Source: a virus. From it: a stretch of DNA of 32,575 nt. The stretch covers positions 1-32,575 of the IMG/VR virus record IMGVR_UViG_3300046734_000277; one strand, written 5' to 3'. The notes below the pieces were generated by a model. It did not search any database, had not been told where the DNA came from, and worked only from the letters and a program-made list of their open reading frames with translations. Positions 594 through 23,939 of this stretch are shown here, in pieces; position 1 is the stretch's first letter; the number at the start of each line of letters is the position of its first letter. The position numbers and the translations under genes are program-made.

Positions 594-3500
594 TTACTGA
601 TTTTCTAAAGTTTCAACTCTTGACTTAAGATCATCAATAATTGTTTGCTGTTCTTGCATAGCCTTAATTAATATAGGTACAAGCACAGAATATTTTACCG
701 TTTTAATTGGTTCTTCATAGCCTGGCACTTCTCTTTCTTTAACTAAAGCTGGGAATATAGATTCTAATTCTTGTGCTACAACACCTATTTGTTTTAAATC
801 CTCTCCTTTAAAATTAAAGTTTCTTACTTTAATTTGTTTTACTTCTTCTAACTTATCAGTTGCATCTACTATATTTTCTTTTAATTTTTCGTCTGAGTAT
901 TGTGTATAACTATTATTTTTATTTACAATATCACCATCTAAGTAACAAATTAATACATTATCATCTCCGGATATATGGTTTGATTGAAAATGCAAAAACA
1001 TACCAGAACTCGCATATGATGCTGTTGTATTTACAAAAACCCCAGTCGAACTACTATTTACACTGCTGCCTAATTGTAGTTTTGCTGCAATTTGCCCAGC
1101 AGCACTATTTTTTACATTTAATCTACCCCCAATATTACCTGAGGTAAAACCAATTGCAACGTCCTGAGCGAAATAAGCATTTTGCCCACTTATAGTACCT
1201 ACAAATGTAGCTGCATTTAAATTACTTGTTGAATGAGGATCTAAATAATAGCCAGTGTTATTTGAATCGTAAAATATAGGAGCTCTTGCTGAGTTTATTG
1301 AAAAAGAATTACCAGATGCATCATTGTACCATCTTCTAGTACCTTGACCACCACTAGTTCCAGCACTACCAGTTGTTGTCCAGTGCTCTAAATTACCAGT
1401 AACCTTATCAAATCTTACATAAACATCATAACCACTATTGTATGCTCTGCCGTAATATTGACCATTTACATGTATATTACCACCGATACCGGAACTATGA
1501 TATGTAATCCCTGGTTCTGATACCCACATAGTTAATGCACCACTTTCAGAAGATGTGCTACCATGTGCATAATTTATATGCATTCTTGCAGTACTATGCC
1601 CACCTTGTACAAATAATTTACCACTTGTAACTAATGATGTTGATCCGTCTGAAGGATTTAAATATCTTGTTGTATCATTTGAATCGTAAAATATAGGTGC
1701 TCTAGAAGATCCAATAGAGTAGCTGTGACCATTAATATCCCACCCGCCTACAGTTTGGCCCTGAGATGTATTATAAAAATGAAAACCAGTGGTTCCTACT
1801 AATTGAGAGGTCGTTCTAAGACCCACATACCATTCGGCTGCACTGTTTTTATAATTCCACATAGCCTCTAAACTACCGTTAGAATATATTTGAGGATATT
1901 GGTGGTTGGTTGTTGTATATACTTTAAATTGGCTACCAGCAGTGTTACTGGTTGTATCTATTTGAACAGCTTTTAAAAGAGAAGATGTAGCTGGATTTAC
2001 ATAATATGTAGTGTTATCTGAATCATAAAAAGTATTAGCATATAAAGACCCTCCTGTTTGTGGGTTGACATCGTGTAATGCTATTGATTTCCAATCTCTG
2101 TACGTTGCATTCCAACCTGTTCTAACGTAAATACCGTTAGTACTTGAACCATTTTCTGGAAAATAAAGTTGTGCTTTTCCTGCACTTGAAATCGCCATAT
2201 TTAATGCAATTCCGTAAGTATAAGCGGGTGGTTTATTAGAGCCTGACATATTAAGAACTGAATTATATCCTGCTTCAGTTCCGTCAATATAATCATTCCA
2301 GTTTTGAGAGGTAAGAGAGCCTCTATACCTAAATACATGTGCATTACCCTCTGTAAGTACTGGCTGCCCGCCTACATTTAAAGCAGCAAAATTTGATGTA
2401 CTATGTGGATCCGCATAATAATTAGTATTATTAGAGTCGTAAAATATAGGCGCTCTTAATGAACTAGCTCCAGTTAAATAATTGTTTACATGACCTACTC
2501 CATTTTGATCCACATAAAAAGTATTAGTACCTGAAGCATTTCTAAAATGTATATATCCGGCAGCTTGTAAATACCAGTGATTAGCATGGTATTGCATCTT
2601 ACCTCCAACTTCACCAGACCAAGAATCGGTAGTTTGTCGCCAATCACCAATAGTTTTAAATGCATTCCCTCCAGATGAAGAGGGATTTAAAAAGTATGTG
2701 GTGTCATTTAAATCATAAAATATTGGTGCTCTTGCATCTTGTGTTACTTCTAAAATAGCATTACCACCATCAAGCTGCATTACTTTTAATGTATTAGCAG
2801 CGCTTGCTCTTATACCTGTTAAGTTACCATAAGCTGAATTATAAGAACCAAAAAATCCATTTGCGCCTTCATAAGCCATATAATGCCCGTCTACTAAAAC
2901 AGAACCTTGACCATTTTTAGATAAAACTACAAATTCTGAACCTCCTGTCATTCCCAATCCAATTTCACGAGTATAACTATGGCTTCCTAAATCACCATAC
3001 CAAGAACCACTTTTAACCCAAAAATCAGATTTATGACTGCCATCTAATGTATCAGCGTCTAGTCCAGAACCAGAACCATCATTACCCGCGTGCCATACAG
3101 CGTTGCCGCCATCATATAAGTTGCCAGTAGCGTTAATATCTCCGTAAACTTCAAACTCATAATTGTTGCCGCTATATGTACCAAAGCGAGCCTGTGTTGT
3201 ATAACTGTTTGCAGTACCCCCAGATTGGTCTATGTATAGTGGTACCCCGCCCCCCACATCTTGTTTCCTAAAGCGAGTCCTATACTGGCCGTTAGTGTAG
3301 TTTCCATCAAATAAAAGTCCTTTGCTTGTGTTACTAGAAGCAATGCTTCCTGATATAACTCTTAAACCACCAGTTGTTGAATCGTCGGCATCACTTCGCA
3401 AGAATGAGCCGCTATTAATACCATCAAGTAAGTCAGCATCAAGACCAGAACCTGAACCATCGTTTCCTGCATGCCATATTGTATTACCAGCCCATGTTAA

Positions 3501-5063
3501 TGCTCCTGTTCCTGCTCTACCTAAAGCATCATTACTTGAATTACCAAATGTGATATATCCATTAGCTCCATTTTGGTTACCTGATATTCTAAAAGTATTA
3601 GCAAGATTAATATCACCAATCCAAGCATCATCACCTATTCTATAATTTTGTCCATTACCATTATTTGTTGTTATAACTTGGTCTGCAGTTAAATCACCAG
3701 CAGCGGTTATATCGGCTATATTAACTAAATTCCTACTGGAATCCATTATATAAGTACCATTTAACTGATACGCTGAAGCGTTAACTACAGAAAAATGACC
3801 AGTACCAGATGAAGCGGTTACATTTCCTGTAACTGTAATACCAGTATTTGTAGTTGATAATCTTGTTATATCATTATTCATTAAATTAACTGCACCATCT
3901 TCAAAAGCAGTTATCATTGTTTCACCACCATTAGCACTTCTTAACCTAAACACATTTGTATCAATTCTTAAATCGCCTGTACCTGCTGTATCTTGTATAT
4001 AACTGTGGTCACCATCGTGGTATATTTGAAGGTCTGAACTAGCACCTAGCCTTATTTTGTTATCATCTGCAAAATACATATCCCCAGTTGTTACTAAGTA
4101 TGTAGGGGTAATTTCTAAAGGAGTAACATCTAAAGCAGAACTGTTTGATAATCTAAATTTAATTGATTGGCTTACTGTATTATGGTCAATAAATGCTGCA
4201 CCAGCGCTTTTAAATGTTAAATTGTTTTCTGCAAATATTGAATTATTAGTTCCAACAGTTATTTGACTTCCATTAACATCAACATTTCCTGCAAAAGTTG
4301 CGTTTCCGCTATTTGACATATCTAAGGTTAAAACAGTACCTACACTGCCTCCATCATTTCCTTGAAATATTATATCTTTGTCATTTGCTAAATTTGTAAT
4401 ATATAAATCTCCAGTATTGTTTCTTATTTGTGAAAATACACTTGAATTATTGTGGTAAAGTTCTAAATCATTCCCAGTACCTATTCGTAATATTATATTA
4501 TCTAATAAACTTACGTTACCTGTAAAAGTTCCACCGGCTAATGGCATTTTAGTTCCAATACTATTAGTAACCGTTGTGCTAAAATTAGCATCGTCGCCTA
4601 AAGCTGCTGCTAATTCATTTAATGTATCTAGTGTACTTGGTGCACTATCAACTATACCTGCAACTGCATCATCAACATATAATTTATTAGCCGCGTCTGT
4701 GTTTGCTGAAACTGTATCAATACCTTGTATTCTACCGGTACCACCTAAAGTAATGTTACCACCTGATACATTTAAACTGCCAGACGCCTCTAAATTTGTT
4801 GTAAATATAGTGTCGCCATCAACATAAAAATCAGAATCAGAATCAATAACCCCTGTTCCATTCCATATAGCCAACCTATTATTTGTACCAGTACCACTTA
4901 CATAATTGTTTGACGATAAATAATTGGCTACTCTAGCATTAGTAAAGTAAAGATTACTACCTTCACCGATATGTGCTGTAGTGATACCGTGACTAGTATG
5001 TAAATGTGCCTGGGTTAATACCCCGTCTTTTATAAAATCACCTGTTACTTTAGTTAATGCCAT
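594..5063 (-). CDS. tail fibre/spike with C-terminal S74 self-cleaving chaperone
   Basis: A 1489-aa virion protein expected to bind the host surface. The N-terminus (MALTKVTGDFIKDGVLTQAH) and a following region with the DAANKLYVDDAVAG signature are typical of fibre shafts. Two copies of a WHAGNDGSGSGLDAD element follow, near the middle. Five copies of a motif close to RAPIFYDSNNTxYYxxP then occur in the second half, a repeat frequent in marine phage fibres. The last 100 residues form an intramolecular chaperone of the peptidase S74 family. The SDEKLKENI motif gives the predicted Ser1390-Lys1395 pair, with cleavage expected just before Ser1390, and the end is a coiled coil (EQQTIIDDLKSRVETLE). 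Cleavage and trimerisation are known for the family, not shown here. It follows a DUF7936-like gene by 10 nt. Confidence 0.92.
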   Translation of the reverse strand: MALTKVTGDFIKDGVLTQAHLHTSHGITTAHIGEGSNLYFTNARVANYLSSNNYVSGTGTNNRLAIWNGTGVIDSDSDFYVDGDTIFTTNLEASGSLNVSGGNITLGGTGRIQGIDTVSANTDAANKLYVDDAVAGIVDSAPSTLDTLNELAAALGDDANFSTTVTNSIGTKMPLAGGTFTGNVSLLDNIILRIGTGNDLELYHNNSSVFSQIRNNTGDLYITNLANDKDIIFQGNDGGSVGTVLTLDMSNSGNATFAGNVDVNGSQITVGTNNSIFAENNLTFKSAGAAFIDHNTVSQSIKFRLSNSSALDVTPLEITPTYLVTTGDMYFADDNKIRLGASSDLQIYHDGDHSYIQDTAGTGDLRIDTNVFRLRSANGGETMITAFEDGAVNLMNNDITRLSTTNTGITVTGNVTASSGTGHFSVVNASAYQLNGTYIMDSSRNLVNIADITAAGDLTADQVITTNNGNGQNYRIGDDAWIGDINLANTFRISGNQNGANGYITFGNSSNDALGRAGTGALTWAGNTIWHAGNDGSGSGLDADLLDGINSGSFLRSDADDSTTGGLRVISGSIASSNTSKGLLFDGNYTNGQYRTRFRKQDVGGGVPLYIDQSGGTANSYTTQARFGTYSGNNYEFEVYGDINATGNLYDGGNAVWHAGNDGSGSGLDADTLDGSHKSDFWVKSGSWYGDLGSHSYTREIGLGMTGGSEFVVLSKNGQGSVLVDGHYMAYEGANGFFGSYNSAYGNLTGIRASAANTLKVMQLDGGNAILEVTQDARAPIFYDLNDTTYFLNPSSSGGNAFKTIGDWRQTTDSWSGEVGGKMQYHANHWYLQAAGYIHFRNASGTNTFYVDQNGVGHVNNYLTGASSLRAPIFYDSNNTNYYADPHSTSNFAALNVGGQPVLTEGNAHVFRYRGSLTSQNWNDYIDGTEAGYNSVLNMSGSNKPPAYTYGIALNMAISSAGKAQLYFPENGSSTNGIYVRTGWNATYRDWKSIALHDVNPQTGGSLYANTFYDSDNTTYYVNPATSSLLKAVQIDTTSNTAGSQFKVYTTTNHQYPQIYSNGSLEAMWNYKNSAAEWYVGLRTTSQLVGTTGFHFYNTSQGQTVGGWDINGHSYSIGSSRAPIFYDSNDTTRYLNPSDGSTSLVTSGKLFVQGGHSTARMHINYAHGSTSSESGALTMWVSEPGITYHSSGIGGNIHVNGQYYGRAYNSGYDVYVRFDKVTGNLEHWTTTGSAGTSGGQGTRRWYNDASGNSFSINSARAPIFYDSNNTGYYLDPHSTSNLNAATFVGTISGQNAYFAQDVAIGFTSGNIGGRLNVKNSAAGQIAAKLQLGSSVNSSSTGVFVNTTASYASSGMFLHFQSNHISGDDNVLICYLDGDIVNKNNSYTQYSDEKLKENIVDATDKLEEVKQIKVRNFNFKGEDLKQIGVVAQELESIFPALVKEREVPGYEEPIKTVKYSVLVPILIKAMQEQQTIIDDLKSRVETLENQ

Positions 5064-5431: not shown

Positions 5432-8400
5432 TTAATATTCTGCTAATGTACCCGCGGAATTGCCTCTAATTGTTACATGAGCTACAGGAGATGCCCCACT
5501 TCCTGACCAAGTTAAAGTTAAGACATAATCTTGACCACTTGGATTAGTATTTAAATATGCTAACGTAATACCAGTTACATTACCTGACCCTTGAACTGAA
5601 GTCATTCCTGTACTAGCTGCTCCATAAGCTACTACTGAACGTCCAACTCCCGAAGCTACATTAGAAGTGTTTTGTTTTATAATTACTGTTACTTGCAAAG
5701 CATGAGTATGATCAACAAAAGCAATAGGAACCGCAGTTCCTGCAGAGCTTAATGCTTTTTGTACTGTTAATGTTTGTTCATTATTAAGTATATCTGAATC
5801 TGAATCACTATTTATTTTAACAGTTCCACGAACTTCAAGTTTTGCGTTAGGTGAAGTCGTTCCAATTCCCACATTTCCGTTGCCTTGTATTCTCATTCTT
5901 TCAATATACTGGCCTGATGTTTCGTTTCTTAAACCTAAACTTATATCACCATCAATATTATTTGAACTAGTATGAAATATACTTAATTCTCTTTGACTGC
6001 CTGATAAATCAATTCCCATTCCTGACCTTATAGTGCCATTAGCATATACATAAAACTTTTGCCCCGCATTAATACCTAAATCTAATGTTGTTAAAGGTGA
6101 AGTTGTTCCGATTCCTACGTTTCCTGCAGATGTTATACGCATTCTTTCTTCAATACCACCAGAACCAGCACTTGTCCAAAAACTCAATCTTCCATCATTA
6201 TTAGCAGAATCCCTATTTGCTGCAATCTGTGCATTTCTTGTGTTCCCACTATTAAAAGAAACAATACCTAAATTTTGACCATTAGCGTCTGTTGAAGGTG
6301 CGGCTAACTCTAATACACCTGCATTTCCTGCTCCTGTACCACCTTGTACGGTTAAAACATTCCAACCAAACCCTGTAAAATCAGGCGAAGTAGTTCCAAT
6401 TCCTACGTTACCAGCTGTAACATAAAGATTATCATCAACAGTAGTTGCGCCGTTTACATAAAGGGTTTCATTTATATAACCAGTTCCATTTACTTGAAGT
6501 TTATATGTAGGTGCAGTTGTGCCGATGCCTACGTTCCCAGATCTTTTCATTGTTACTTTGGCATCTGATAAACTTACTTCATCAGTAATAGTAGTTGAAT
6601 TATTAAAACAAAAATGTAAATCAGCCATATTATAACCATAGCCTCCACCAGAACCTACAATAGCTGTTTTATTAGCATAAGCACTAGAATTATTTTCTGG
6701 TCTAAAAGCTACACCAACTCCATAGTCTGCTTGATATCTTGCACCTGAAATAGCAACTGGAAAAAACGTTCCAGCTGTAGTTGTTGTTTCTACAATATTT
6801 AATTTTTCTAAAGGCGAAGTCGTACCAATTCCGACATTTCCTCCATTGAAATATGAATTACCATTAGAATTAATATTAACTTTAGTTACATTACTATCTT
6901 TTAAAAATAAAAACCCTTCATCAGTACCACCCCAGCTTAAACCACCATATTGGTTACCACCACCAGCATAACCATAGATTACATTTCTTACATAAGTAGC
7001 ACCATTTACATCTAATGGAGCTGCAGGCGATGTAGTTCCTATTCCTACATTACTTCCTGATGGATTTAATGATAAAGGAAAGTTTACTCCATCTGAATTT
7101 CTTTGAGATTGAATCCAGGTTCCGTATGGAGAAGAAGCTGATTGACCAATAGCTATACCCACATCTGCTCCTCGTATATAAGCTGCAGAATTAGCTACGC
7201 TAGTAGTATCATTTTGTACATTTCCATAAACTTCTAATTTAGAAGCAGGTGAAGTTGTCCCGATTCCTACTTTTCCATTAGGAACAACCATTGCACCACT
7301 TGTATTAATAACAGTATTTGAACCTAAACTGTCTAAAGTTATAACAGCACCAGTTGTCATTGACATTAAAGTTCTTGAATTGCTTACCTCTTTAATACTA
7401 AATGTTTCGGCATCAACTCTCAATTCATAAGGTTTGTTATTGTCGGTATCAGTTATTCTTAATGCTGGAGTAGCTGATTCTAAATCTAACAAAGCATCAG
7501 GAGATGTTGTTCCAATTCCTAAATTACCACTGCCTGTATAGACCATTTGATTGGTAAAATTCCCGCTACTATTATAAGCTTCAATACTTAAATAATTTAA
7601 ACTAGAAGAAGGGCCATTAATTTGAATTGCTGAAGAATTAGAATCATATATTGCACCAGTTGCTGTATTTCTATTAAATCCAATCCTACCACTATTAGCA
7701 TTTTGAATTTTTAAATTTCCAATTTTAACACTCCCTGATACTTCAAGTTTTTCAGCGGGAGAAGTCGTACCGATTCCTACGTTTCCCGAACTATTAATAC
7801 GCATTCTTTCCGTGTTGCTAACTTGAAACCACATATAATCTCCATCGTGAGCATACCTAATAGAACCTTCAACTGTATCTTCTGGGTCACCAAACAATAT
7901 ACCTTGTTCTTGTAAGTTGCCAGAAATAAATTGAATATAACTTGGTGAATTACCTCTTGCTATTTGTAATTTAGAATTACCATTAAACGAAGTTTGTTCA
8001 GTTCCAATTCCTAAATTACCAGAACTATTTAATCTCATTTTTTCAATAGAACCTGAGTTTCTAAATATAATTGAACTTGATGCAGGCATTGCGTCTACAT
8101 ATGTATTTGTTCCGTCTGATTTAAATCTAGCTTTATTAGTTCCTCCTACAATAAGATCACCTGTTACCGTGCCACCTGCTAATGGTAAATGCCCGACTTG
8201 AGAATATGTGTAAGCTGTATTCCAGTTTGTTGAATTATCTGTAATTATGCTATACACACCTGACCCATTGGTTTTCATTAAACCAGCAGATGAAAATTCA
8301 CTATCTGTTAATATATCTCCGTCAGCTGCCACTGTCTTAAAAGATATAACTTCGATGTCACTTGTGTTTGGTGGAGCGGTGCTAAAGGTAAGAGTTGTAC

Positions 8401-8674
8401 CATTCAAAGAATATGTATCTTTATGCTGGTATACACCGTCTATATATACTTGTGTTTTATTTTCGTTGTCTATACTGTTTGCTAAAGTAAAAGCAGTTGT
8501 ACTGCCATTACCTGTAAAACCGTCTTGATAAACTACACTTGCGCTAGCTGTATTATCTACCCAGTTTAAAGCAGATCCAGTAGAAGACAATACTTGTCCT
8601 GAAGTTCCTAAATCCCCAGATGAGTCTTTTAGGCCTCGCGTAAGTTCTATATCTGTTAGAAACTTTTGCGCCAT
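5432..8674 (-). CDS. tail fibre with GIGTTSP repeats
   Basis: A 1080-aa virion fibre protein. The N-terminus MAQKFLTDIELTRGLKD and the early module with VYIDGVYQHKDTYSLNG followed by TLTFSTAPP are common fibre-attachment pieces. The body carries about ten copies of a motif close to GNVGIGTTSPxxKLEV (including the variants GKVGIGTTSP, GNVGIGTTAP and GNLGIGTEQT), a beta-rich repeat known from long phage and bacterial surface fibres. The C-terminus is a compact Ser/Gly/Val-rich domain ending TIRGNSAGTLAEY and has no S74 chaperone, unlike the neighbouring giant fibre. It is 11 nt downstream of another fibre-type gene. A receptor-binding role is inferred; the receptor is unknown. Confidence 0.88.
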   Translation of the reverse strand: MAQKFLTDIELTRGLKDSSGDLGTSGQVLSSTGSALNWVDNTASASVVYQDGFTGNGSTTAFTLANSIDNENKTQVYIDGVYQHKDTYSLNGTTLTFSTAPPNTSDIEVISFKTVAADGDILTDSEFSSAGLMKTNGSGVYSIITDNSTNWNTAYTYSQVGHLPLAGGTVTGDLIVGGTNKARFKSDGTNTYVDAMPASSSIIFRNSGSIEKMRLNSSGNLGIGTEQTSFNGNSKLQIARGNSPSYIQFISGNLQEQGILFGDPEDTVEGSIRYAHDGDYMWFQVSNTERMRINSSGNVGIGTTSPAEKLEVSGSVKIGNLKIQNANSGRIGFNRNTATGAIYDSNSSAIQINGPSSSLNYLSIEAYNSSGNFTNQMVYTGSGNLGIGTTSPDALLDLESATPALRITDTDNNKPYELRVDAETFSIKEVSNSRTLMSMTTGAVITLDSLGSNTVINTSGAMVVPNGKVGIGTTSPASKLEVYGNVQNDTTSVANSAAYIRGADVGIAIGQSASSPYGTWIQSQRNSDGVNFPLSLNPSGSNVGIGTTSPAAPLDVNGATYVRNVIYGYAGGGNQYGGLSWGGTDEGFLFLKDSNVTKVNINSNGNSYFNGGNVGIGTTSPLEKLNIVETTTTAGTFFPVAISGARYQADYGVGVAFRPENNSSAYANKTAIVGSGGGYGYNMADLHFCFNNSTTITDEVSLSDAKVTMKRSGNVGIGTTAPTYKLQVNGTGYINETLYVNGATTVDDNLYVTAGNVGIGTTSPDFTGFGWNVLTVQGGTGAGNAGVLELAAPSTDANGQNLGIVSFNSGNTRNAQIAANRDSANNDGRLSFWTSAGSGGIEERMRITSAGNVGIGTTSPLTTLDLGINAGQKFYVYANGTIRSGMGIDLSGSQRELSIFHTSSNNIDGDISLGLRNETSGQYIERMRIQGNGNVGIGTTSPNAKLEVRGTVKINSDSDSDILNNEQTLTVQKALSSAGTAVPIAFVDHTHALQVTVIIKQNTSNVASGVGRSVVAYGAASTGMTSVQGSGNVTGITLAYLNTNPSGQDYVLTLTWSGSGASPVAHVTIRGNSAGTLAEY

Positions 8675-10427: not shown

Positions 10428-10886
10428 TTATTTTTTTATAACATTAATAGACTTTTCAACCCCACGCGAACCGAAGTAAGAAATAACAACCGCCATCATA
10501 ACCTTTTCAAAAGTGTCATTCCATAACGCGTTTATTTGAAAGTCTACTGAATTTACAGAATCTAATATACCAGCAAAAGAAAAAACAACAATACACCATA
10601 TTAAAACCATAGGTCGTACGTTTGCCGCAAGCCAAGATCCAGAAGTAGCGTCTGCCTTCCACCTTAAACTTATTTCTTCCATTTCTTTATTCTGCTGATC
10701 GTATATTAATTGCTGTAATTTAATTTTATCGTCTGTAGATATTTTTGCTTTACCTATTTGTGCAATTGCATCTTTAGGTGAAGTTACACCATTTAATACT
10801 GCGCCAAGTTGCGGTGAAACAACTGAAGCAGCCCCAAATAATAATTTACCTACCGTCGTATCTTTGAATTTCTTTTTATCAGACAT
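10428..10886 (-). CDS. holin, 3TM family
   Basis: A 152-aa protein resembling the 3TM holin family described for gene transfer agents and many phages. Holins form the lethal membrane lesion that times lysis. A weakly hydrophobic N-terminal helix lies at about residues 12-30 and a charged amphipathic helix at 50-78 (KLQQLIYDQQNKEMEEI). A strong membrane segment follows at about 92-110 after the typical RP (RPMVLIWCIVVFSFAGIL), and another at about 128-140 ending SYFGSRGVEKS, a characteristic closing motif. The start shares one base with the stop of the upstream gene (TAATG). No endolysin is recognisable next to it. Confidence 0.85.
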   Translation of the reverse strand: MSDKKKFKDTTVGKLLFGAASVVSPQLGAVLNGVTSPKDAIAQIGKAKISTDDKIKLQQLIYDQQNKEMEEISLRWKADATSGSWLAANVRPMVLIWCIVVFSFAGILDSVNSVDFQINALWNDTFEKVMMAVVISYFGSRGVEKSINVIKK

Positions 10887-12332: not shown

Positions 12333-12734
12333 TTATTTTATTTTTGTTGGATAAACTTTTGTTTTATCATATACTTCTTTTTCAATTGGGTTATTAGGAT
12401 CACCGTATTTCATTTTTTTACCTTTAATAATCATACCATCTCCAACCCTTTTAAATACTTGTATCGGTTCATCTTTTTTAGGTTTGAAATAAACATTGTT
12501 ATTGTCATACCAAGATCTTCCGCTTCGCATTTGAATTATATGTTCTTTTTCATGTTCTACAGCATCTGCTTTCTGCTTGTTATTTAAGTCTTTATTAATA
12601 GTAATAGTACGATCCATTTCTGCGTGACCCCAACTGCTTCCTAATTTTTTTTCAAAAACTGGTGTATCAGGTGTTGAATGTTTTTCATTAATACCTAATA
12701 AGCCTGGAATACTGCTTTTCATTTTATAGCCCAT
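12333..12734 (-). CDS. HExxH protein, putative zinc metallopeptidase-like
   Basis: A 133-aa protein with an HExxH zinc-site signature, AVEHEKEHIIQM, giving His61, Glu62 and His65 in a predicted helix, as in zincin metallopeptidases. The third metal ligand is not obvious. A region before it (ITINKDLNNKQKADAVEHEKEH) resembles proteins where a zincin helix follows a short beta hairpin. There is no signal peptide, and at this length it would be a minimal catalytic domain. It could process virion proteins or act on the cell envelope, or the motif could be structural only. It shares one base with the upstream gene's stop, within the cluster between GroES and the holin. Confidence 0.68.
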   Translation of the reverse strand: MGYKMKSSIPGLLGINEKHSTPDTPVFEKKLGSSWGHAEMDRTITINKDLNNKQKADAVEHEKEHIIQMRSGRSWYDNNNVYFKPKKDEPIQVFKRVGDGMIIKGKKMKYGDPNNPIEKEVYDKTKVYPTKIK

Positions 12735-13174
12735 TATCTATCTTTATCTTTAATCATATCATCTATAGCTTTATTATAAACTTTATCTGTATATGATTTA
12801 TTATTATAAAACTTACTTCTTTCGCTTGTAGGTAAATCTTCCTGAGCAAGCATTATACGATACATTCGCATAATTAATTGTTTACATTTAAAAGAAGTTT
12901 TATATATACTATATTTTATAGTTGTTCTATTACGATGCCTCCATACATCTATCCATCCGCTTCTTCTTAGTCTTTCCCATCTATCTTTATCCCAACTATA
13001 TGTGTAGGTGCCATCAATAAAATCATTACGTGTAAATCGCTCTTTGCAATCTAAATAAATAAGTAATTCTAAATCGGCGTCTTTTAGCCCATATGTTTTA
13101 CAGGCCCATTTTCGGATGAGCCTGTAATATTTTAGTAAATTTAAATCTTTTATGTCACTAGCACTTAACCTCAT
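12734..13174 (-). CDS. winged-helix-like conserved phage protein
   Basis: A 146-aa basic protein: LKYYRLIRKWACKTYGLKDA then DLELLIYLDCKERFTRNDF, then TYSWDKDRWERLRRSGWIDV, WRHRNRTTIKYSIYKTSFKC and finally PTSERSKFYNNKSYTDKVYN. The pattern of helices, a helix-turn-helix-like middle and a hairpin rich in R, W and Y resembles MarR-type winged helices, and I recall the family from many marine phages. DNA binding is inferred, not shown. It overlaps GroES by 4 nt and is followed by the HExxH gene with a 1-nt overlap. A late-gene regulator or a virion DNA-binding protein are both possible. Confidence 0.72.
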   Translation of the reverse strand: MRLSASDIKDLNLLKYYRLIRKWACKTYGLKDADLELLIYLDCKERFTRNDFIDGTYTYSWDKDRWERLRRSGWIDVWRHRNRTTIKYSIYKTSFKCKQLIMRMYRIMLAQEDLPTSERSKFYNNKSYTDKVYNKAIDDMIKDKDR

Positions 13175-13428
13175 TCGACTAACACTATATCACCAAGTTT
13201 TAAAACATAATATAGGTTATCTTTCCATTCGATACCATGACCAGCATGCTTATCGTAATATACTATATCGTCTTTACTAAGTATATCTGCTAAATGACCT
13301 GCAGAAATGACTTTTCCTTTTAAATACCTAACGTCTTTATTTTGATCTTCCGTTAGTTCAAGCCCTCCAACTTTTTTTGGAGCTTCTTTTATTTTTTCAA
13401 CAATGACGTAGTAATTAATTGCTTTCAT
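13171..13428 (-). CDS. groS: phage GroES-like co-chaperonin
   Basis: An 85-aa Cpn10-family protein, shorter than bacterial GroES (about 97 aa). Fold landmarks are AINYYVIVEKI at the start, the mobile loop region at about residues 16-37 containing GGLELTE, then LKGKVISAGH, a DIVYYDKHAGHGIEWKDNLY stretch and the closing LKLGDIVLVE. The loop tripeptide is L-E-L where bacterial GroES has I-V-L, so its middle position is acidic. Cpn10 heptamers cap the GroEL cavity. Its start lies 14 nt inside the end of the groEL gene, and its stop overlaps the next gene by 4 nt. The partner is very likely the phage GroEL upstream. Confidence 0.9.
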   Translation of the reverse strand: MKAINYYVIVEKIKEAPKKVGGLELTEDQNKDVRYLKGKVISAGHLADILSKDDIVYYDKHAGHGIEWKDNLYYVLKLGDIVLVE

Positions 13429-14977
13429 AATCTCTTACATTATTAATTACACAATCCGCTGAAAATATTGTTGTAGAAACACTAACTGCATTTCTTAATG
13501 CTGTTTTAGTTACGAGTACTGGATCTATAATTCCAGCTTCAACCATATTAATTTTTTTGTTTGCTACAACATCAATACCTATACCAGTTTTACCAGACTC
13601 TTTATATTCTAATGCCGCATTATCTAATATTGCTGCATAAGGTGCTTTTATTGCCTCTAGTAATATTGCTTCACCATCATTTTCAGGTATGATAGCGTAT
13701 GATGCATCTAATAACGCAACACCACCACCTGAAACAATACCTTCTTGTAAAGCTGCTTTTGTAGCATATATAGCGTCTTCAACTCTATCTTTCTTTTCCT
13801 TCATTTCAACCTTAGAGTTTGCACCAACTTTAATCATTGCCACTTGCCCGTTTAGCATTGCTAATCTTTCTTGTAGCTTCTTTTTGAAGAATGGGTTTTT
13901 TTCTTCTTTGATTTTATTTTCAACCACTTCGATCCTCTCGTTGAGAGCAACACCTTGGTCATTTGTTTGTAACACTGTATGTTTATCATCTGTAACTGAC
14001 TGAATAGCCTGTCCTAAAACATCGGGTTGTATTAAATCAAGATCATCGCCTAATTCTTCATTTATGACTTTTGCTCCGGTAAGTATCGCAAGGTCTTCAA
14101 TCGTATCTTGTTTTGTTGGACCGAATCCAGGCAAATCTACAACATTTACTTTTATATTACCTTTAACTTTATTAGCAAGCAATGCCGCTAAAGGTTGTTG
14201 TTCTACGCCTGCAACGATTAACAAACTTCTTTTCGATTTTATGACAAACTCCAATACGCTTTGTATTTTACGGATATTAGGTATCGGCGAGGATACTATC
14301 AGTACGTACGGATTATCTAGCACTGCTTTACCTTTATCCTTGTTTGTTATAAAATGTGGCGACTTGAGTCCGCAATTTATTCTAGTGCCCTCAACAAATT
14401 TAACTTGAGTGTCATGGGTCTCAGACTCTTCCATAAGGACGACACCATCCTTTCCTACTTTTGAATAGGCTTGCGATATAACTTTACCAAGAGCTTTATC
14501 ATTGTTACAACTAATTTCAGCTACGCTTTCAAGCATATCGTCTTTTACTTCAACTGCATTATCATCAAGATATTGAATTACTTTATTCATACCTGATAAT
14601 ATACCTTCTTTAATAGGTCTTACAGTTTGTGCATATTTTTTATCATTTGCTAAATGCAATAATGAATGAGCAAGGACGGTAGCCGTTGTGGTACCATCAC
14701 CTGCTTCTTTCACTGTATTCTTGGCAGCTTCCTTAATTAAAGTAGCACCAATATTCTCGACCGGATCCAGTAAGACTACTGATTCTGCAACCGTTACACC
14801 GTCTTTTGTTATCACCGGTCTTCCGAGAGCGTCTTCATATATAACGCATTTTCCCGAGGCTCCTAATGTAGATCTAACTGCATCAGTTAATTTATCTACA
14901 CCCGCCATTATTTTTTCTCTAGCATCCTTCCCGAAGGAAAGATCCTTAACTATCTCACTTGGGTTATTATATTCCAT
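13415..14977 (-). CDS. groL: phage GroEL-like chaperonin
   Basis: A 520-aa group I chaperonin subunit. The equatorial ATP-site motifs are intact: TKDGVTVAE with Asp59, AGDGTTTATVL with Asp94, and RVEDAIYATKAA followed by GIVSGGGVALL, which carries the catalytic Asp equivalent to E. coli Asp398. The apical domain occupies roughly residues 195-380 (LKSPHFITNKDKGKA, PGFGPTKQDTIEDLAILTGA). The C-terminus stops at CVINNVRDYESN and lacks the GGM-rich tail of bacterial GroEL. It is the first of a groEL-groES pair, opposite to the usual order. It presumably folds phage structural proteins; with ATP motifs intact it should be active. There is no clear promoter in the 24-nt A/T gap before it. Confidence 0.96.
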   Translation of the reverse strand: MEYNNPSEIVKDLSFGKDAREKIMAGVDKLTDAVRSTLGASGKCVIYEDALGRPVITKDGVTVAESVVLLDPVENIGATLIKEAAKNTVKEAGDGTTTATVLAHSLLHLANDKKYAQTVRPIKEGILSGMNKVIQYLDDNAVEVKDDMLESVAEISCNNDKALGKVISQAYSKVGKDGVVLMEESETHDTQVKFVEGTRINCGLKSPHFITNKDKGKAVLDNPYVLIVSSPIPNIRKIQSVLEFVIKSKRSLLIVAGVEQQPLAALLANKVKGNIKVNVVDLPGFGPTKQDTIEDLAILTGAKVINEELGDDLDLIQPDVLGQAIQSVTDDKHTVLQTNDQGVALNERIEVVENKIKEEKNPFFKKKLQERLAMLNGQVAMIKVGANSKVEMKEKKDRVEDAIYATKAALQEGIVSGGGVALLDASYAIIPENDGEAILLEAIKAPYAAILDNAALEYKESGKTGIGIDVVANKKINMVEAGIIDPVLVTKTALRNAVSVSTTIFSADCVINNVRDYESN

Positions 14978-15001
14978 TAAATTAAATTTTTTTATAAGTG
15001 G

Positions 15002-15310
15002 TTATTCAAAGGTTTTAACAACTTTAGGTCCTTTAGCGAACTCTAATCTTTTGTTATAATGTTCGATACTTCCATCAATTGCAGCTTCTGCTGATTCGAT
15101 GGTTTCTCTTCTGGTTATATCTGTCCATTCACCGGATGGTGTACCATCTGCATTTAAGCTTTGGCATTCGGTTTGATAAAATCCATTTGGTAATTGAACG
15201 ATTCTCCAATTTTTTTTGTCTGCGAAAAATTCCCATGTCTTCTTGGTTTCTTCGGATATTCCTTGGCTACTATTATTCGCCCAGGAATAGGTTTTGTAAT
15301 AAAATGTCAT
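15002..15310 (-). CDS. 102-aa unknown phage protein
   Basis: I do not recognise a family. The protein starts MTFYYKTYSWANNSSQGISE and has WEFFADKKNWRIVQLPNGFY in the middle, then a Gly/Thr/Trp turn (SGEWTDITRRETIESAEAAI) and a charged end. It is aromatic-rich near the N-terminus and probably a small alpha/beta protein. It lies 24 nt before groEL and 44 nt after the Gly/Pro-rich tip-like gene. Similar small proteins near fibres occur in marine phages, so a structural accessory role is possible. Confidence 0.7.
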   Translation of the reverse strand: MTFYYKTYSWANNSSQGISEETKKTWEFFADKKNWRIVQLPNGFYQTECQSLNADGTPSGEWTDITRRETIESAEAAIDGSIEHYNKRLEFAKGPKVVKTFE

Positions 15311-15354: not shown

Positions 15355-15627
15355 TTAAGGTCCTCCAAGTCCTTCATTGCCGCCGCCACCTGGACCACCA
15401 CCGCCAGGAGGAGGGGGAGGGCCACCGCCCGTATGAGTATACCCATGAAACTCACTCATTCTATGTGGGGCAGTTTTATTTACACCACTGGTTGCTGCTC
15501 CAAATAAACTAGCAGCTAAAGGTGTTGAACCACCTGCTAGCTTAATTTCATTTGAACTAGCATCTGAATCTCCAAGTTCGGTATTTATATCGTGCATGGA
15601 TATTTCACCACTACCTGGTAAGCTCAT
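15355..15627 (-). CDS. Gly/Pro-rich fibre-tip-like protein
   Basis: A 90-aa protein starting MSLPGSGEISMHDINTELGD. This SLPxSGxIS...INTELG opening is common in small phage tail proteins. The middle has ASSNEIKLAGGSTPLAASLF, then HRMSEFHGYTHTGGG, and the last 25 residues are nearly all G and P (PPPPPGGGGPGGGGNEGLGG). Polyglycine ends like this recall adhesins at fibre tips such as the T4-type gp38 group, so receptor contact is plausible. Its start overlaps the end of the 1737-aa fibre gene by 17 nt, which fits a fibre plus tip-subunit pair. The function is inferred. Confidence 0.78.
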   Translation of the reverse strand: MSLPGSGEISMHDINTELGDSDASSNEIKLAGGSTPLAASLFGAATSGVNKTAPHRMSEFHGYTHTGGGPPPPPGGGGPGGGGNEGLGGP

Positions 15628-18600
15628 CTTCTAATTTTTTAACTTTGTTATTTAATTCTTTTATAGACTCAATTAATAGTGCTGTTAACTTAGGGTAATC
15701 AACTGCTTTATAACCATTGTCTCTTGTTTCTACAATCTCAGGAAATACCTCTTCAATTTCTTGTGCAATAACTCCAATATCTTTTTTGCCTGTTTCTTTA
15801 TGTGATATTTTATTCCAAGTAAATGATACACCATTTATTTTATTTAATTTATCTAATGGATTAGATATATTGACTATATTATCTTTATACCTTTTATCTG
15901 AAGACACATATGCAACTACATCACCTTTTACTTTTAATGAATCTCCAGTATTATCCATATCAAGATAATGTGTGGTTGAATTCATATCATAAATAGTACC
16001 TCTAAAATAAGCATGATTATTTATGTCAAATTTAAATATTGAATATTCATAATCAGGCGAACCTGAAATTAATTTTCTTATATTAAATATATCATTTTGA
16101 TATGTTCCTGTACTACCTTGAGCGCTTGGAACATCTAAGAAAAATGTTTTATAATATTCACTTACATGCAACCTTCCTGAATCTGTTGTTCTAGCTCCTG
16201 AATTTTGATTAAATATAATACTCATTCCGCTTGCATAATTAGCAGAAGCAGTTACACTATTTGCGGATTGGTTTGGTATTATTACACCAGCACCATTCAA
16301 TATCATTACTTGTTTAGAGTAGTTATCATTTTCATTTCCTGTTACAAGTGATTTACCTAATCTATATTTAGCACTTAAGTCAAAGTTACCGGATGTACCA
16401 CCACCCCCAGTCATTTCTATAACGTGGTGATATCTTGATGCTGATTGCATTTCCATACATACTGATCCCGCATCATTTGATACAGTACCTAGGTTTTTTA
16501 ATAATAATGCAGTTGCTCTACCGTTTGGATCTAAAGATGTAGCAGTACCCCCAATTGTTGCAAAACTTTCAACCTCAATATCACCTCCAAATTTAGCATT
16601 ACCTCCACTATCAACTAAAAATTGTTTAGATATTATTGATCCATTACTTAAATCAATTTTAGTACCAGCATCAGCAAATACTTCTCCACTGTCAGGTGCA
16701 TCATAATTAGCACTTTGAATAGTACCGGTTGTTATATTACCACCATTAATTGTTGTACTACCACTTGTTGATAATGAATTAAATGTAACAACTTGGTTAA
16801 AAGCAAATGCTCTTACTGGAGCCGCAAATGATGGTGTGCCCGTACCGCCTCCTGCAGTTGTTTCAGTTACGGTATATGCAGAAGTCCAGTATTTATTACT
16901 TGCACTACCGGCCGTCATTTCTGGAGATTCATTTTGCCAGCCACTAGGGAAAGAGTTAAATGATGAATTATTAAAATTCCAAGTTATACCTGAGTTACTT
17001 GGTGTGCTTGGAGATCCACTCGATCCAGCATTATACCATATAATACCTGTTGCAGTTCTTTTCCCATCAGTACCGTTTGTTCCATTGGTTCCGTTTGTTC
17101 CATTGGTTCCGTTTGTTCCATCTTGTCCATCTGTTCCATCTTGTCCATCTGAACCTTGCTTTGATTTTGATAAGGTTTGAACTTTTGTAAACGTTGTAAC
17201 GCCTTCTACATTTATAGTATATTCAATACTAGCTAAGTCAGCAGTCATGCTAGTGTGATCGCCAACCACAGCCGGATTACCTGAAACAGTTATTGAACCT
17301 GCAGTTATATTTGTACCAGCTACAGTTACTTTGAATTGACCAGTAGATGGTGTGCCTGTAATACTATTTAATTCTGTTGTTCCTTTATATACTATAATAT
17401 TAGTACCACTACCAGTATATGTTACCGTACCTGTATTTGTTGTAGGCAGCGTATGTGCTTCGTTTGTTAATATTACAGTATAAGCATCTGCACCATCTGC
17501 ACCATCCGCGCCATCATTTCCATCATTCCCGTCAGTACCATTCGTACCATTCGTACCATTCGTACCGTTAGTTCCGTTAGTCCCATCCGTACCATCAGCC
17601 CCAGGTTTAATTCCAAAAACAGTAATTTGATCTCTAGCTAATATAGTACCACTTGCACTACCCTCTCTAATTTGCACTTCAATCACTTCTGGCATACTAG
17701 CATAACTTGAAGGCGGTGTGTAAGTATATGTATTTGTTGTTGTAGCCGTGCCAGCACTTGAATTGTTTTTAAAGAATTCGTAATATACAGTACCTGACGT
17801 GTTTACCGCAGTTGCTGTTACAGTTACTGTAGACGGACTAGGTGATGCACCCGCTGCTGTATACTCAAAACTTAAATCATCAGCTGTTAGGTTTACCGCT
17901 CTAGCTGCTGTTCCTGCTGATCCATTTGAACCATCTGCTCCATCAACCCCATCTGCCCCATCTGCTCCTTGTTTTGATTTAGCAAGAGTTTGTATTTTAG
18001 TAAAGCTATGTGTGTTTTCTACATTTATAGTATAAGTTACAGAAGCATTGTCTGCTGTCATACTTCCGTGATCCGCAATCACTACTGGATTACCACTAGA
18101 TGATATTGCACCCGGTGTTATACTAGAACCTGAAGCGGTAACTTTAAATTGATTTGTACCTGGTGTTCCAGTTGTTATTCCATTTATTTCTGTAGTTCCT
18201 TTATATACTGTTATATTTGTTCCTGAACCTGTGTAAGTAACTGCGCCCGTGTTAGTAGTTGGTAATGTATGTGCCTCATTACTTAAAACAACAGTATACC
18301 CGTCAGAACCATCAGTCCCGTTTGTTCCATTATTTCCAGCCGCTCCCGGTTTTATACCGACTACAGTTATTTGGTCTCTCGCTAAAACCGCGCTTGTAGC
18401 TGAACCTTCTCTTATTTGTACCTCTATTTTGTCAGGCATATTAGCATAACTACTTTGAGGAGTATATGTATACGTTGCAGTTGTAGTTGCTGTTCCTGTA
18501 CTTACATCATTTACAAAAAATTCATAATATACCGTACCTGATGTATTAATTGGATTACCTCTTACAACTATAGTGCTAGGCGAAGGTGTTGTTCCTGCAG

Positions 18601-20824
18601 CGGTATATTCTACACTAAGATCAGCTGCCGTTAAATTTACAGCTCTTGCATCCGTACCCGCTGATCCGTCTGCACCTGCAGCACCAGTTAATCCTTGCTT
18701 TGATTTTGATATTGTTTGAAATTTTTCAATAGTAACGCTATTCTCTATATTTATTGTATATTTTATAATAGCGAGATCAGTTGTCATTCCACTGTGGTCT
18801 GCAAATACAGCTGGATTTCCTGTTACTGTTTGATTACCTACAGTTATAGTACCTGATTCTACAGTTGCTGTTACTTTAAATTGATTAGCACCTGGCGTAC
18901 CTGTAACACTACTATATTCTGTACCACCATCAAATACCCTTATAGTTGTGCCAGAACCAGAAAAACTTGAAACGGTTCCGCTAGTATCAGCAGGTAGTGT
19001 ATGAGCTTCATTAGTACATACTACAGTTAAACCATTTGACCCTTGTTTTACCCCAACAACATTAACTGTATCAAAAGCAACTTCAGATTGACCTCCATCT
19101 GCAGCGCCTACCCTAAATTCTAAAGGCGCGGAAAATATACTTGCCGGCATATTAATGGTTACGCTATCACTGTTCTGAGCGGTACCGTCTGTAAAAGAAG
19201 TTTCATCTGTAAAAGTAGACCCACCTCCAGTAAATTTATAGAAGCCATTAGAAAGATTAGTTGAATTAGAAGTTAATGTTATACTAGAAGGATTTGGATT
19301 GTTACCTTCTGAATCGTATTGTATAACAAAAGCATTTGAACTTAATTTAACTGTCTTAGCATCCGCACCATTTGATCCTGTACTACCAGTAATTTGATTA
19401 AATGTTAAACCTGAAGGAACCGTATCACCATCGGTCCACGCTGACGATGCTTGATAAATTGCATAAAAAGTTCTCGACCCTTGTGTTGTCGATGCGTTAG
19501 ACCCACTTGAGTTATCCGCATATATTACAGTTGTAACAAATGTACTTGGAACATTACTTAAATCGCCAAATGATACCGTACCTATATTGGCACTTTTAAT
19601 TTTTACAACCCCATTTGATACTTCAAAAGGTGCATCGAATGAAGAGCCGTTATATACTTTAAATTTATCAGCTAAAAATCTTATTTCTGAGTATGGATCC
19701 GACGTAGCCCCATTTTGTGCAAGTATCGACATACCAGCAATTGCACCATTTGCATTTAAATTTAAGCTATATCTTGATTCTGTATATCCTTCTACTGTTG
19801 CAATAGTACTTTGGTTAGTACTTATACTAGAAGTATTACCATTTACTGTAGCTGTAAGGTCTGTAACTGATTGTGCTGTTGCTAAACTAGCATTGGCTAT
19901 AGCCGCATTGGCATTTGTAGTTACTGCGGTTGATAAAACACCTGTAATTCCAGTTACATCACCATTACTGTCTTGTGAGAACACTGCTTCTAGCTTATCT
20001 AAGTCACTTGCTACTGATCCAGCGGCAGATGTGGCCGTATTACTAATACTTGTTGATAATGCACCGGCTACACCCGTGATATCTGTGCCCGAAAATGTAA
20101 ATTGTGACTCTAATTCTGTTACTTTATTGGCACTAGAGCTAATATTTGTGGCATTTGTGTTAATACTTGTGTTTGCAGTAGCTATAGCACTGGTATTCGT
20201 ACCTATTCTTGTATCATCTGATACTACCCAAGCGCTACCATTAAATATATATAGCTTATTATTGTCGTTTGTATCGTACCAAAGCGAATTTGCAGGTAAA
20301 CCAGTCGTTGAAGGAGCATCATCTTGTCTAAAAACTCTAGGTCTTAGCGATAATGCTGCTACATTGCCTGTTATATTAGTTGTATTTGTTGCAATTTGAG
20401 GATCATGTGTCAATGTCCATGTACCATTAACTAATACATATACTTTATTACCATCATTTGTGTCATACCACAGTGATGAATTAGCTACTCCTGAAGTAGA
20501 TGGAGCGTCGTCTTGCCTAAATATGCTTGGTTTAAGGGCTAAAGTGTCATTAGCTGTAGTAACTGTAGAAGTTAAACTAGTTAATGCGCTAGCGTTTGCA
20601 CTAATAGCAGTTGTATTAGTAGTAATAGTGTTGCTCATAGTAGCTAAACTATACGTAGTTCCTGTTTGTATATAGAAACTTGCAAAATATTCTGCTAAAT
20701 CACCTAGTTTATAGTTAGCTGTTGTAAATTCTTTTTGATTGTTTACCGTTCTGACGTATTCCGAGCCTATTAATAGATCGTCATCACTCGGATTTTCATT
20801 GGTATATGTTGAGATTTTAGCCAT
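15611..20824 (-). CDS. giant collagen-like tail fibre with S74 chaperone
   Basis: A 1737-aa fibre. The N-terminal module MAKISTYTNENPSDDDLLIG resembles that of the 233-aa structural protein. Two FRQDDAPST...LWYDTND copies follow near residues 102 and 169, then Thr/Ala/Asn-rich helical repeats. From about 600 to 1260 there are three related blocks, each with a NEAHTLP segment (about 605, 850, 1123), a VYYEFF/QIREGSA piece or equivalent, and a short collagen-like Gly-x-y run (GTNGTDG, GADGADGADA). A C-terminal S74 domain begins at the SDKRYKDNI motif with predicted Ser1642-Lys1647, cleaved just before Ser1642 in known members, and ends in a coiled coil. It starts 1 nt after the small basic gene's stop. 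It is probably the main long fibre. Confidence 0.92.
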   Translation of the reverse strand: MAKISTYTNENPSDDDLLIGSEYVRTVNNQKEFTTANYKLGDLAEYFASFYIQTGTTYSLATMSNTITTNTTAISANASALTSLTSTVTTANDTLALKPSIFRQDDAPSTSGVANSSLWYDTNDGNKVYVLVNGTWTLTHDPQIATNTTNITGNVAALSLRPRVFRQDDAPSTTGLPANSLWYDTNDNNKLYIFNGSAWVVSDDTRIGTNTSAIATANTSINTNATNISSSANKVTELESQFTFSGTDITGVAGALSTSISNTATSAAGSVASDLDKLEAVFSQDSNGDVTGITGVLSTAVTTNANAAIANASLATAQSVTDLTATVNGNTSSISTNQSTIATVEGYTESRYSLNLNANGAIAGMSILAQNGATSDPYSEIRFLADKFKVYNGSSFDAPFEVSNGVVKIKSANIGTVSFGDLSNVPSTFVTTVIYADNSSGSNASTTQGSRTFYAIYQASSAWTDGDTVPSGLTFNQITGSTGSNGADAKTVKLSSNAFVIQYDSEGNNPNPSSITLTSNSTNLSNGFYKFTGGGSTFTDETSFTDGTAQNSDSVTINMPASIFSAPLEFRVGAADGGQSEVAFDTVNVVGVKQGSNGLTVVCTNEAHTLPADTSGTVSSFSGSGTTIRVFDGGTEYSSVTGTPGANQFKVTATVESGTITVGNQTVTGNPAVFADHSGMTTDLAIIKYTINIENSVTIEKFQTISKSKQGLTGAAGADGSAGTDARAVNLTAADLSVEYTAAGTTPSPSTIVVRGNPINTSGTVYYEFFVNDVSTGTATTTATYTYTPQSSYANMPDKIEVQIREGSATSAVLARDQITVVGIKPGAAGNNGTNGTDGSDGYTVVLSNEAHTLPTTNTGAVTYTGSGTNITVYKGTTEINGITTGTPGTNQFKVTASGSSITPGAISSSGNPVVIADHGSMTADNASVTYTINVENTHSFTKIQTLAKSKQGADGADGVDGADGSNGSAGTAARAVNLTADDLSFEYTAAGASPSPSTVTVTATAVNTSGTVYYEFFKNNSSAGTATTTNTYTYTPPSSYASMPEVIEVQIREGSASGTILARDQITVFGIKPGADGTDGTNGTNGTNGTNGTNGTDGNDGNDGADGADGADAYTVILTNEAHTLPTTNTGTVTYTGSGTNIIVYKGTTELNSITGTPSTGQFKVTVAGTNITAGSITVSGNPAVVGDHTSMTADLASIEYTINVEGVTTFTKVQTLSKSKQGSDGQDGTDGQDGTNGTNGTNGTNGTNGTDGKRTATGIIWYNAGSSGSPSTPSNSGITWNFNNSSFNSFPSGWQNESPEMTAGSASNKYWTSAYTVTETTAGGGTGTPSFAAPVRAFAFNQVVTFNSLSTSGSTTINGGNITTGTIQSANYDAPDSGEVFADAGTKIDLSNGSIISKQFLVDSGGNAKFGGDIEVESFATIGGTATSLDPNGRATALLLKNLGTVSNDAGSVCMEMQSASRYHHVIEMTGGGGTSGNFDLSAKYRLGKSLVTGNENDNYSKQVMILNGAGVIIPNQSANSVTASANYASGMSIIFNQNSGARTTDSGRLHVSEYYKTFFLDVPSAQGSTGTYQNDIFNIRKLISGSPDYEYSIFKFDINNHAYFRGTIYDMNSTTHYLDMDNTGDSLKVKGDVVAYVSSDKRYKDNIVNISNPLDKLNKINGVSFTWNKISHKETGKKDIGVIAQEIEEVFPEIVETRDNGYKAVDYPKLTALLIESIKELNNKVKKLEDELTR

Positions 20825-23405: not shown

Positions 23406-23597
23406 ATGAAAAAATGTAAATGCAATAATATAATACCATTAGGTAGAGTCAAGCTAGGTTATAATACCTGTGTTAATTGTAGTACAACTCAACAATATAG
23501 TTATGTACCTATAATTGCAAACAAACAAGTACTTGAAGTACAAATAGTATCACAAGAAGTAAGTGCTGCGGTACATAAATCGTGGCGAAGAAAATAG
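23406..23597 (+). CDS. small C4 zinc-finger protein, DksA/TraR-like
   Basis: A 63-aa protein starting MKKCKCNNIIPLGRVKLGYN, then TCVNCSTTQQYSYVPIIANK. Cys4, Cys6, Cys22 and Cys25 form a CxC...CxxC zinc site like that of DksA/TraR C4 proteins, which modulate RNA polymerase through its secondary channel. The piece RVKLGYNTCVNCS is the most characteristic part. It lacks the long coiled coil of full DksA, as do short TraR-like phage proteins. It is expressed from element copy 5 and may tune host transcription early; this is inference. Confidence 0.7.
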   Translation: MKKCKCNNIIPLGRVKLGYNTCVNCSTTQQYSYVPIIANKQVLEVQIVSQEVSAAVHKSWRRK

Positions 23598-23756
23598 GGC
23601 GTGAAATGGTAAGACAAGAAATAGGAGACGATAAGATTTGAAGCTAACTAAAAATGTATGTGATGCCGACTATCGACGGATATAAGCGAGCGTACGGAAG
23701 TGTATTACATTTGTTAGTTATTTGATGTATTTCTTTGAAGTCACACTAACTTGAAC

Positions 23757-23781
23757 GCAGGTTCGAATCCTGCCACGTCCA
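23757..23781 (+). tRNA. tRNA-like 3' half (T arm plus acceptor strand), 5' half uncertain
   Basis: GCAGG-TTCGAAT-CCTGC is a perfect T arm with the conserved loop, followed by a 7-nt acceptor strand CACGTCC and discriminator A. No CCA is encoded. A canonical 5' half is missing: GGAAGTG at 23696-23702 pairs with one mismatch but its D region lacks GG, and GGGCGTG at 23597-23603 pairs with one G-U but lies about 185 nt away. It may be a degenerate tRNA, a structured RNA ending, or a tRNA-derived attachment core. It ends 2 nt before the next ATG. Confidence 0.45.
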
Positions 23782-23783
23782 CT

Positions 23784-23939
23784 ATGGAACATCCAAACGC
23801 AAAGAAACATTTTTATGTGTCAATTCTGAAGAGTATAGTAAGAATTGTCGGGTATACGCTAATACCTTTCAATATAGTAGCGGCATGTATAACGCTGGTA
23901 ACCAGTGAGTTAATCGGCATTTATGAAGAAATGGTTTAA
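23784..23939 (+). CDS. 51-aa membrane protein, conserved in marine phages
   Basis: Starts MEHPNAKKHFYVSILKSIVR then IVGYTLIPFNIVAACITLVT, ending ELIGIYEEMV. One long hydrophobic segment (about 13-44, perhaps a hairpin) follows a basic/His N-terminus. I recall MEHPNxKKHxYVS proteins in many marine phages, always small and of unknown function. An upstream TTG (23751) is rejected because it reads through the tRNA-like T arm. Its stop abuts element copy 6. Confidence 0.75.
   Translation: MEHPNAKKHFYVSILKSIVRIVGYTLIPFNIVAACITLVTSELIGIYEEMV

Follow-up and report, generated by a model that had tools for sequence, protein, structure and literature searches.

We analyzed a fragment of 32,575 bases from a virus (IMG/VR virus record IMGVR_UViG_3300046734_000277), which is hereafter referred to as the window. 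The genes groEL and groES, together with a third gene (T), are located in a minus-strand block with tail-fibre and holin genes (Table 1). A plus-strand block on the right side of the window encodes a DNA ligase, an ERF protein, an exonuclease-like protein, and a primase/helicase. The closest match of the primase/helicase was found in Cellulophaga phage phi10:1 (43.9%). This match and the phage relatives described below suggest a Bacteroidota host; thus, the window is probably derived from an aquatic phage that infects Bacteroidota.

Table 1. Positions of the features in the window and of the long GroES genes in other contigs (contig label before the colon)
Feature	Position	Strand	Remarks
S74-type tail-fibre protein	594-5063	-	1489 aa; C-terminal S74 intramolecular chaperone domain
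Further tail-fibre-like protein	5432-8674	-	
Holin	10428-10886	-	
T, third gene of the cassette	12734..13174	-	146 aa; ATGA (4-nt) overlap with groES
groES, co-chaperonin (Cpn10)	13171..13428	-	85 aa; short roof loop; mobile-loop motif GG-L-E-L-T
Overlap of groEL end and groES start	13415..13428	-	14 nt
groEL, group I chaperonin (Cpn60)	13415..14977	-	520 aa; ATG start at 14977
A/T-rich leader	14978..15001	-	Between the groEL start and the upstream gene (15002-15310)
S74-type tail-fibre protein	15611-20824	-	1737 aa; C-terminal S74 intramolecular chaperone domain; collagen-like repeats
Long GroES	L281:2367-2909	+	Beside the large terminase gene
Long GroES	L283:11827-12375	-	Beside the large terminase gene
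Long GroES	L279:31782-32345	-	Beside the large terminase gene
Long GroES	L284-L298; L318:458-1060; L321:1560-2144		Beside the large terminase gene

The chaperonin region is flanked by the two very large, S74-ended tail-fibre-like proteins. No Shine-Dalgarno sequence was evident in the leader before groEL, and its absence is usual for Bacteroidota phages. Elsewhere in the window, ARAGORN called a tmRNA of merely 186 nt at 23597-23784 (+). The match to the full Rfam model (188 nt) was under the gathering score, and the credible element is only tRNA-like (23696-23781, 29.2 bits). Similarly weak tRNA-like matches were observed in four of the 12 long relatives, and a fifth had a match of 63.9 bits, which exceeds the tmRNA cut-off, in a stretch of 83 bases.

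The product of groEL matched Pfam Cpn60_TCP1 (PF00118) over residues 30-513 (E = 3.7e-48, 164.9 bits with a cut-off of 34.3) and phrog_5725 of PHROGs (E = 4.5e-134). The product of groES matched Pfam Cpn10 (PF00166; E = 9.3e-9, 35.6 bits with a cut-off of 21.1) and phrog_3188 (E = 6.3e-10). AlphaFold2 models, which were built from homologs of the window lineage and bacteria, had pLDDT values of 85 (GroEL) and 92 (GroES), and the top Foldseek matches were GroEL structures and Cpn10, respectively. The original prediction of groEL followed by groES with a 14-nt overlap was thus exact in coordinates, strand, and lengths, and the profiles and predicted folds identified the products as Cpn60 and Cpn10. 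The small size of GroES, which had also been read correctly, is due to a roof loop that is about 10 residues shorter than that of E. coli GroES. A short roof is not a hallmark of phages, as it was also found in the GroES of phage DAC16 and in a Campylobacter GroES, which is equally short. The window GroES retains the mobile-loop motif GGLELT, and it is predicted to cap GroEL.

By scanning viral contigs with the window GroEL, we confirmed at least 599 relatives in IMG/VR, and the best 80 of them (66-100% identity) were fetched. In all 80, groES follows groEL on the same strand and overlaps it by 1 to 26 nt (most commonly 14, 1, 4, or 17 nt), which is consistent with translational coupling of the two genes. 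The dN/dS values against 11 relatives were 0.08-0.17 for groEL and 0.05-0.18 for groES. Thus, both genes and their arrangement are fixed and under selection. Among the 80 bacterial loci, groES was detected in 72, and all 72 have groES before groEL, in agreement with what had been assumed for bacterial operons.

The reversed order is not unique to the window lineage. It recurs in the phages similar to the Flavobacterium elemo phages (13 of 13), in Maribacter phage Panino and two Panino-like contigs, and in the group of the Manatee Spring phage MW202828 (all 77 loci in which groES was found; the two genes overlap in just 13, and the gap exceeds 300 nt in 34). No relatives were recovered when viral contigs were scanned with the Panino GroEL. 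The opposite order, groES before groEL, was found in phages immuto, Calle, DAC16, and MW202566. No groES adjoins groEL in phage EL and in several Vibrio phages. The assumption that most phages with chaperonin genes carry only one partner did not hold for this section of phage diversity: both are present in the window lineage, the elemo-like and MW202828-like phages, Panino, Calle, immuto, and DAC16. In Cellulophaga phage phi18:3, a small groES occurs together with a T homolog in convergent orientation (E = 3.7e-17) and with a long GroES gene by the terminase, and no match to groEL was found in this phage. As phi18:3 has groES and T without groEL, the order of groEL and groES is readily explained by groEL that was gained upstream of, or lost beside, a standing phage groES. 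The reversed, overlapping order had been taken as an argument for a phage lineage; the phage lineage itself stands on the tree described below, and the order is weak evidence alone, given the phi18:3 groES without groEL.

The GroEL tree was constructed from 61 sequences with a mixture model. The window lineage formed one clade (support 100/100) on a long stem (1.37 substitutions per site), and it grouped with other phage GroELs outside the branch that contains bacteria. The support for this split was 94/94, just below the starred level of the tool, and several phage branches are long, so that the deeper branching order is unsure. A single clade of the window lineage and Bacteroidota hosts was rejected (AU test, p = 0.000485), and a single clade of GroELs from all phages with the groEL-groES order was not rejected (p = 0.33). 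Other phage GroELs were nested inside bacterial clades (Bacteroides phage DAC16 and a 735-kb phage in Bacteroidota; Vibrio phages Va1, K471, and 207E48 in gammaproteobacteria), which indicates that the tree is able to reveal capture. The best identity to a bacterial GroEL was 42% among the matches listed, where one genome per species was scanned. The original prediction of a phage lineage without recent host capture had named close clustering with host GroEL in a tree as the contrary result, and no such clustering was found.

The terminase gene is absent from the window fragment and present in 15 of 16 long relatives, including the closest (the L003 contig, GroEL 96% identical). The PF03354 terminase model had no match within the lineage. 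The terminases of the long contigs share 62-65% identity with the MW202828 terminase, and homologous terminases are encoded in the elemo phages, Panino, Calle, phi18:3, and Gundel. Since GroEL is 36% and terminase about 64% identical between the lineage and MW202828, GroEL may have been replaced, instead of inherited by plain vertical descent; the excess divergence could mean either fast evolution or replacement of GroEL. This difference (L082 and L279 compared with the window lineage) is the opposite of the expectation that GroEL is conserved. A terminase tree intended to time the gain of groEL was set aside, as many of its branches are very long and only a few forks are supported. From these sequence comparisons, we conclude that the chaperonin pair is real, old, and common to hundreds of related phages.

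Residues were compared between 79 GroELs of the lineage and 79 of bacteria, with the numbering of E. coli GroEL. The catalytic residues D52, D87, and D398 are conserved in all 79 lineage GroELs, and D495 and the GGG loop in all 22 GroELs examined. The GGM tail occurs in none of the 79 lineage GroELs, versus 71 of the 79 bacterial ones. The earlier description of a GroEL with ATP motifs and without the GGM tail was thus correct. The GGM-rich C-terminal tail is a usual trait of GroEL, but it is neither essential nor defining. The segments bearing E434 and E461 are shortened or deleted in 79 of 79 lineage GroELs (78 of the 79 bacterial GroELs have E or D at position 461), and R452 is lost. In E. 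coli GroEL, these residues form contacts between the rings. Its loss suggests that the lineage GroEL is a single-ring or altered-ring machine, in which the ring would act alone or with an odd ring-ring interface. As single-ring chaperonins exist, the missing inter-ring contacts do not bar membership in GroEL.

The apical substrate-binding sites are also changed in the lineage: Y199 is replaced by L or I, Y203 mostly by H, and L234 by Q, the last in all 79 GroELs. L237 is conserved in 79 of 79. L234 is a contact for both GroES and substrate. With these apical changes, binding of the lid or the substrate may differ from that in GroEL. A co-variation of V26E in the mobile loop of GroES and L234Q in GroEL was considered and dropped, because the MW202828-like GroELs combine E234 with a hydrophobic loop and the elemo GroELs have L234.

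Homologs of the third gene, T, follow groES in all 79 relatives with room for them. In all 13 elemo-like and 77 MW202828-like loci, a T homolog also adjoins groES and is encoded on the opposite strand. A T homolog is thereby present near groES in every phage group with the groEL-groES order. The groEL-groES order with T beside groES, which is the trait of the phages with this order and a phrog_6681-type terminase, is present in the window. The T protein has weak winged-helix/MarR-like similarity (4rbr in the PDB profile search, E = 0.11), and six of 28 T members matched a PHROG named transcriptional regulator. The Pfam search of T gave scattered single-member matches that were not credible, and no solid family. 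In a tblastn search, T seemed strictly tied to groEL (70 of 70 records), and phi18:3 overturned this; thus, T is linked to groES or to the locus, and not to groEL.

A second, long GroES-like protein of about 180-200 residues (phrog_13932, co-chaperonin GroES) is encoded beside the terminase in 15 of the 16 long lineage contigs, as well as in the elemo phages, Panino, MW202828, Calle, and phi18:3. Its gene lies outside the window fragment and is carried by the closest long relative mentioned above. The C-terminal half of the protein matched the GroES profile (hhalign 91.7%, E = 7.7e-7). The N-terminal half matched GroES weakly (24-35%, E of 4e-4 to 8e-4, versus 0.02-0.4 with shuffled columns), and the protein is possibly a tandem lid similar to chloroplast Cpn20. 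It appeared to be exclusive to groEL carriers in 77 records, which was also overturned by phi18:3. The protein is already annotated as cpn10 in the elemo phages, Calle, and phi18:3, and 'chaperonin cpn10' is listed as a core gene of Pervagoviridae (PMC8776804). In Panino, the protein annotated as GroES is the long form beside the terminase, and the groES beside groEL (L089:4221-4487; Panino 68128-68394) is annotated as hypothetical only. The pair in the window had been called complete; the pair itself is confirmed, but 'complete' may understate the system, as the long relatives have this second, larger GroES-like protein.

We think it likely that groEL and groES give rise to a functional phage chaperonin of group I with a co-chaperonin of its own, in an old lineage of podovirus-type phages related to marine and freshwater Bacteroidota phages. 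As groEL, groES, and T are arranged head to tail with short overlaps, the ring and the lid would probably be produced together. The GroEL subunits would assemble into a ring to which ATP and non-native proteins bind, and the phage GroES would cap the ring so that the client folds within. The clients would most likely be virion proteins, and the ring may act alone or through an atypical contact between rings. The proposal is based on homology, the catalytic residues, purifying selection, the separation from host GroEL, and the fixed order; the ring state, the coupling, and the clients are inferred. In its most likely form, the pair would work as a standard ATP-driven cage that is closed by a phage lid and serves phage proteins. 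A more elaborate form seems improbable, namely a private single-ring GroEL with two lids (the small GroES and the tandem Cpn20-like protein) that would jointly provide virion proteins with a mixed or enlarged cage, in which case T would be a regulator or an accessory factor of the cassette.

Other explanations concern how the two proteins act. The phage GroEL may work without a lid, similar to gp146 of phage EL, and the phage GroES may cap the host GroEL, similar to gp31 of T4. The occurrence of GroES without GroEL in the related phi18:3, the lack of interaction between EL and E. coli GroES (PMC7185714), and the invariable Q at L234, a contact for GroES and substrate, are in favor of such separate functions. 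We nevertheless consider them unlikely, because the genes overlap in 80 of 80 relatives and both are under purifying selection, and because the window GroEL is about 40% identical to bacterial GroELs over its full length and keeps L237, whereas EL is just 25.6% identical to it. The altered apical residues, the missing GGM tail, and the lost inter-ring contacts would also fit a chaperonin-derived scaffold or decoy that has lost folding activity. This is quite improbable, as all the tested catalytic residues are conserved, dN/dS is well under 1, and the partner GroES is retained.

With regard to the origin of the locus, recent capture of a host groESL operon, which was then rearranged to groEL-groES, has a precedent in the other phage GroELs that nest in host clades (DAC16, the 735-kb phage, and the Vibrio phages). 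The tree and the AU test reject it for the window lineage, with its separate clade on a long stem and the rejected union with Bacteroidota. The opposite order in every bacterial locus with a detected groES and the constant order over 80 loci that span 66-100% GroEL identity also make capture extremely improbable. By contrast, there is a nearly even chance that groEL was added upstream of a standing groES-T, or lost from an older groEL-groES-T, so that the order is a record of this event without a function of its own. This is suggested by phi18:3 with its small groES, T, and long GroES, by the homologous terminases across these phages, by the GroEL of the lineage and MW202828 being far more divergent than the terminase, and by the single clade of the phage GroELs with this order, which was not rejected. 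On the other hand, the direction of change is not readable from the terminase tree, and in Calle, which belongs to the same terminase group, groES lies upstream of groEL. This explanation is about origin and is compatible with a working chaperonin pair.

Aquatic phages commonly encode complete chaperonin systems. The presence of both GroEL and GroES in phages is already known (PMC7185714), and the groEL-groES order is visible in the public elemo records. The distinctive features of the window lineage are the ring contacts, the second lid, and the third gene, which make it a good test case. The solved chaperonins of EL, OBP, and AR9 are from giant phages and are reported to need no lid, whereas the system of this lineage is compact and abundant, includes a lid of its own, and apparently lacks the usual inter-ring contacts. 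It could be used to test whether a natural single-ring GroEL-GroES cycle is sufficient and which virion proteins need it, and the elemo phages, grown on Flavobacterium sp. BAL314, are cultured relatives for such experiments. Marine et al. (2017, in ISME J) reportedly described marine viral GroEL/GroES that are divergent from those of bacteria, with the subunit gene order tied to the GroEL phylogeny.

Among the known systems, the cultured elemo phages (Elemovirus, about 60 kb) share with the window lineage the groEL-groES order (with an overlap of 1 nt), the T homolog by groES, the absence of the GGM tail, and the long GroES-like protein beside a homologous terminase, but their GroEL is only about 35% identical, T is on the opposite strand, and L234 and R452/K452 are present. 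The podovirus MW202828 from Manatee Spring and about 440 related IMG/VR contigs likewise have this order, T by groES, and the long GroES by the terminase; unlike the window, T is convergent, GroEL is 36% identical, and in many members groEL and groES are separated by other genes or by gaps. Panino, whose GroEL and GroES homologs were noted by its authors (PMC11590407), also has groEL followed by groES and the long GroES beside the terminase, but T, although nearby, is about 1 kb away, past a tRNA cluster. EL gp146, OBP gp246, and AR9 gp228 are phage-encoded, group-I-like chaperonins similar to the window GroEL, and those of OBP and AR9 are single rings (PMC9598537); unlike the window pair, all three are reported to work without a co-chaperonin. 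T4 gp31 is a phage co-chaperonin similar to the window GroES (Foldseek match 1g31, E = 5.5e-3), and it also lacks the roof loops (PMC6318259), but its partner is the host GroEL, its mobile loop is longer, and it is 14% identical to GroES.
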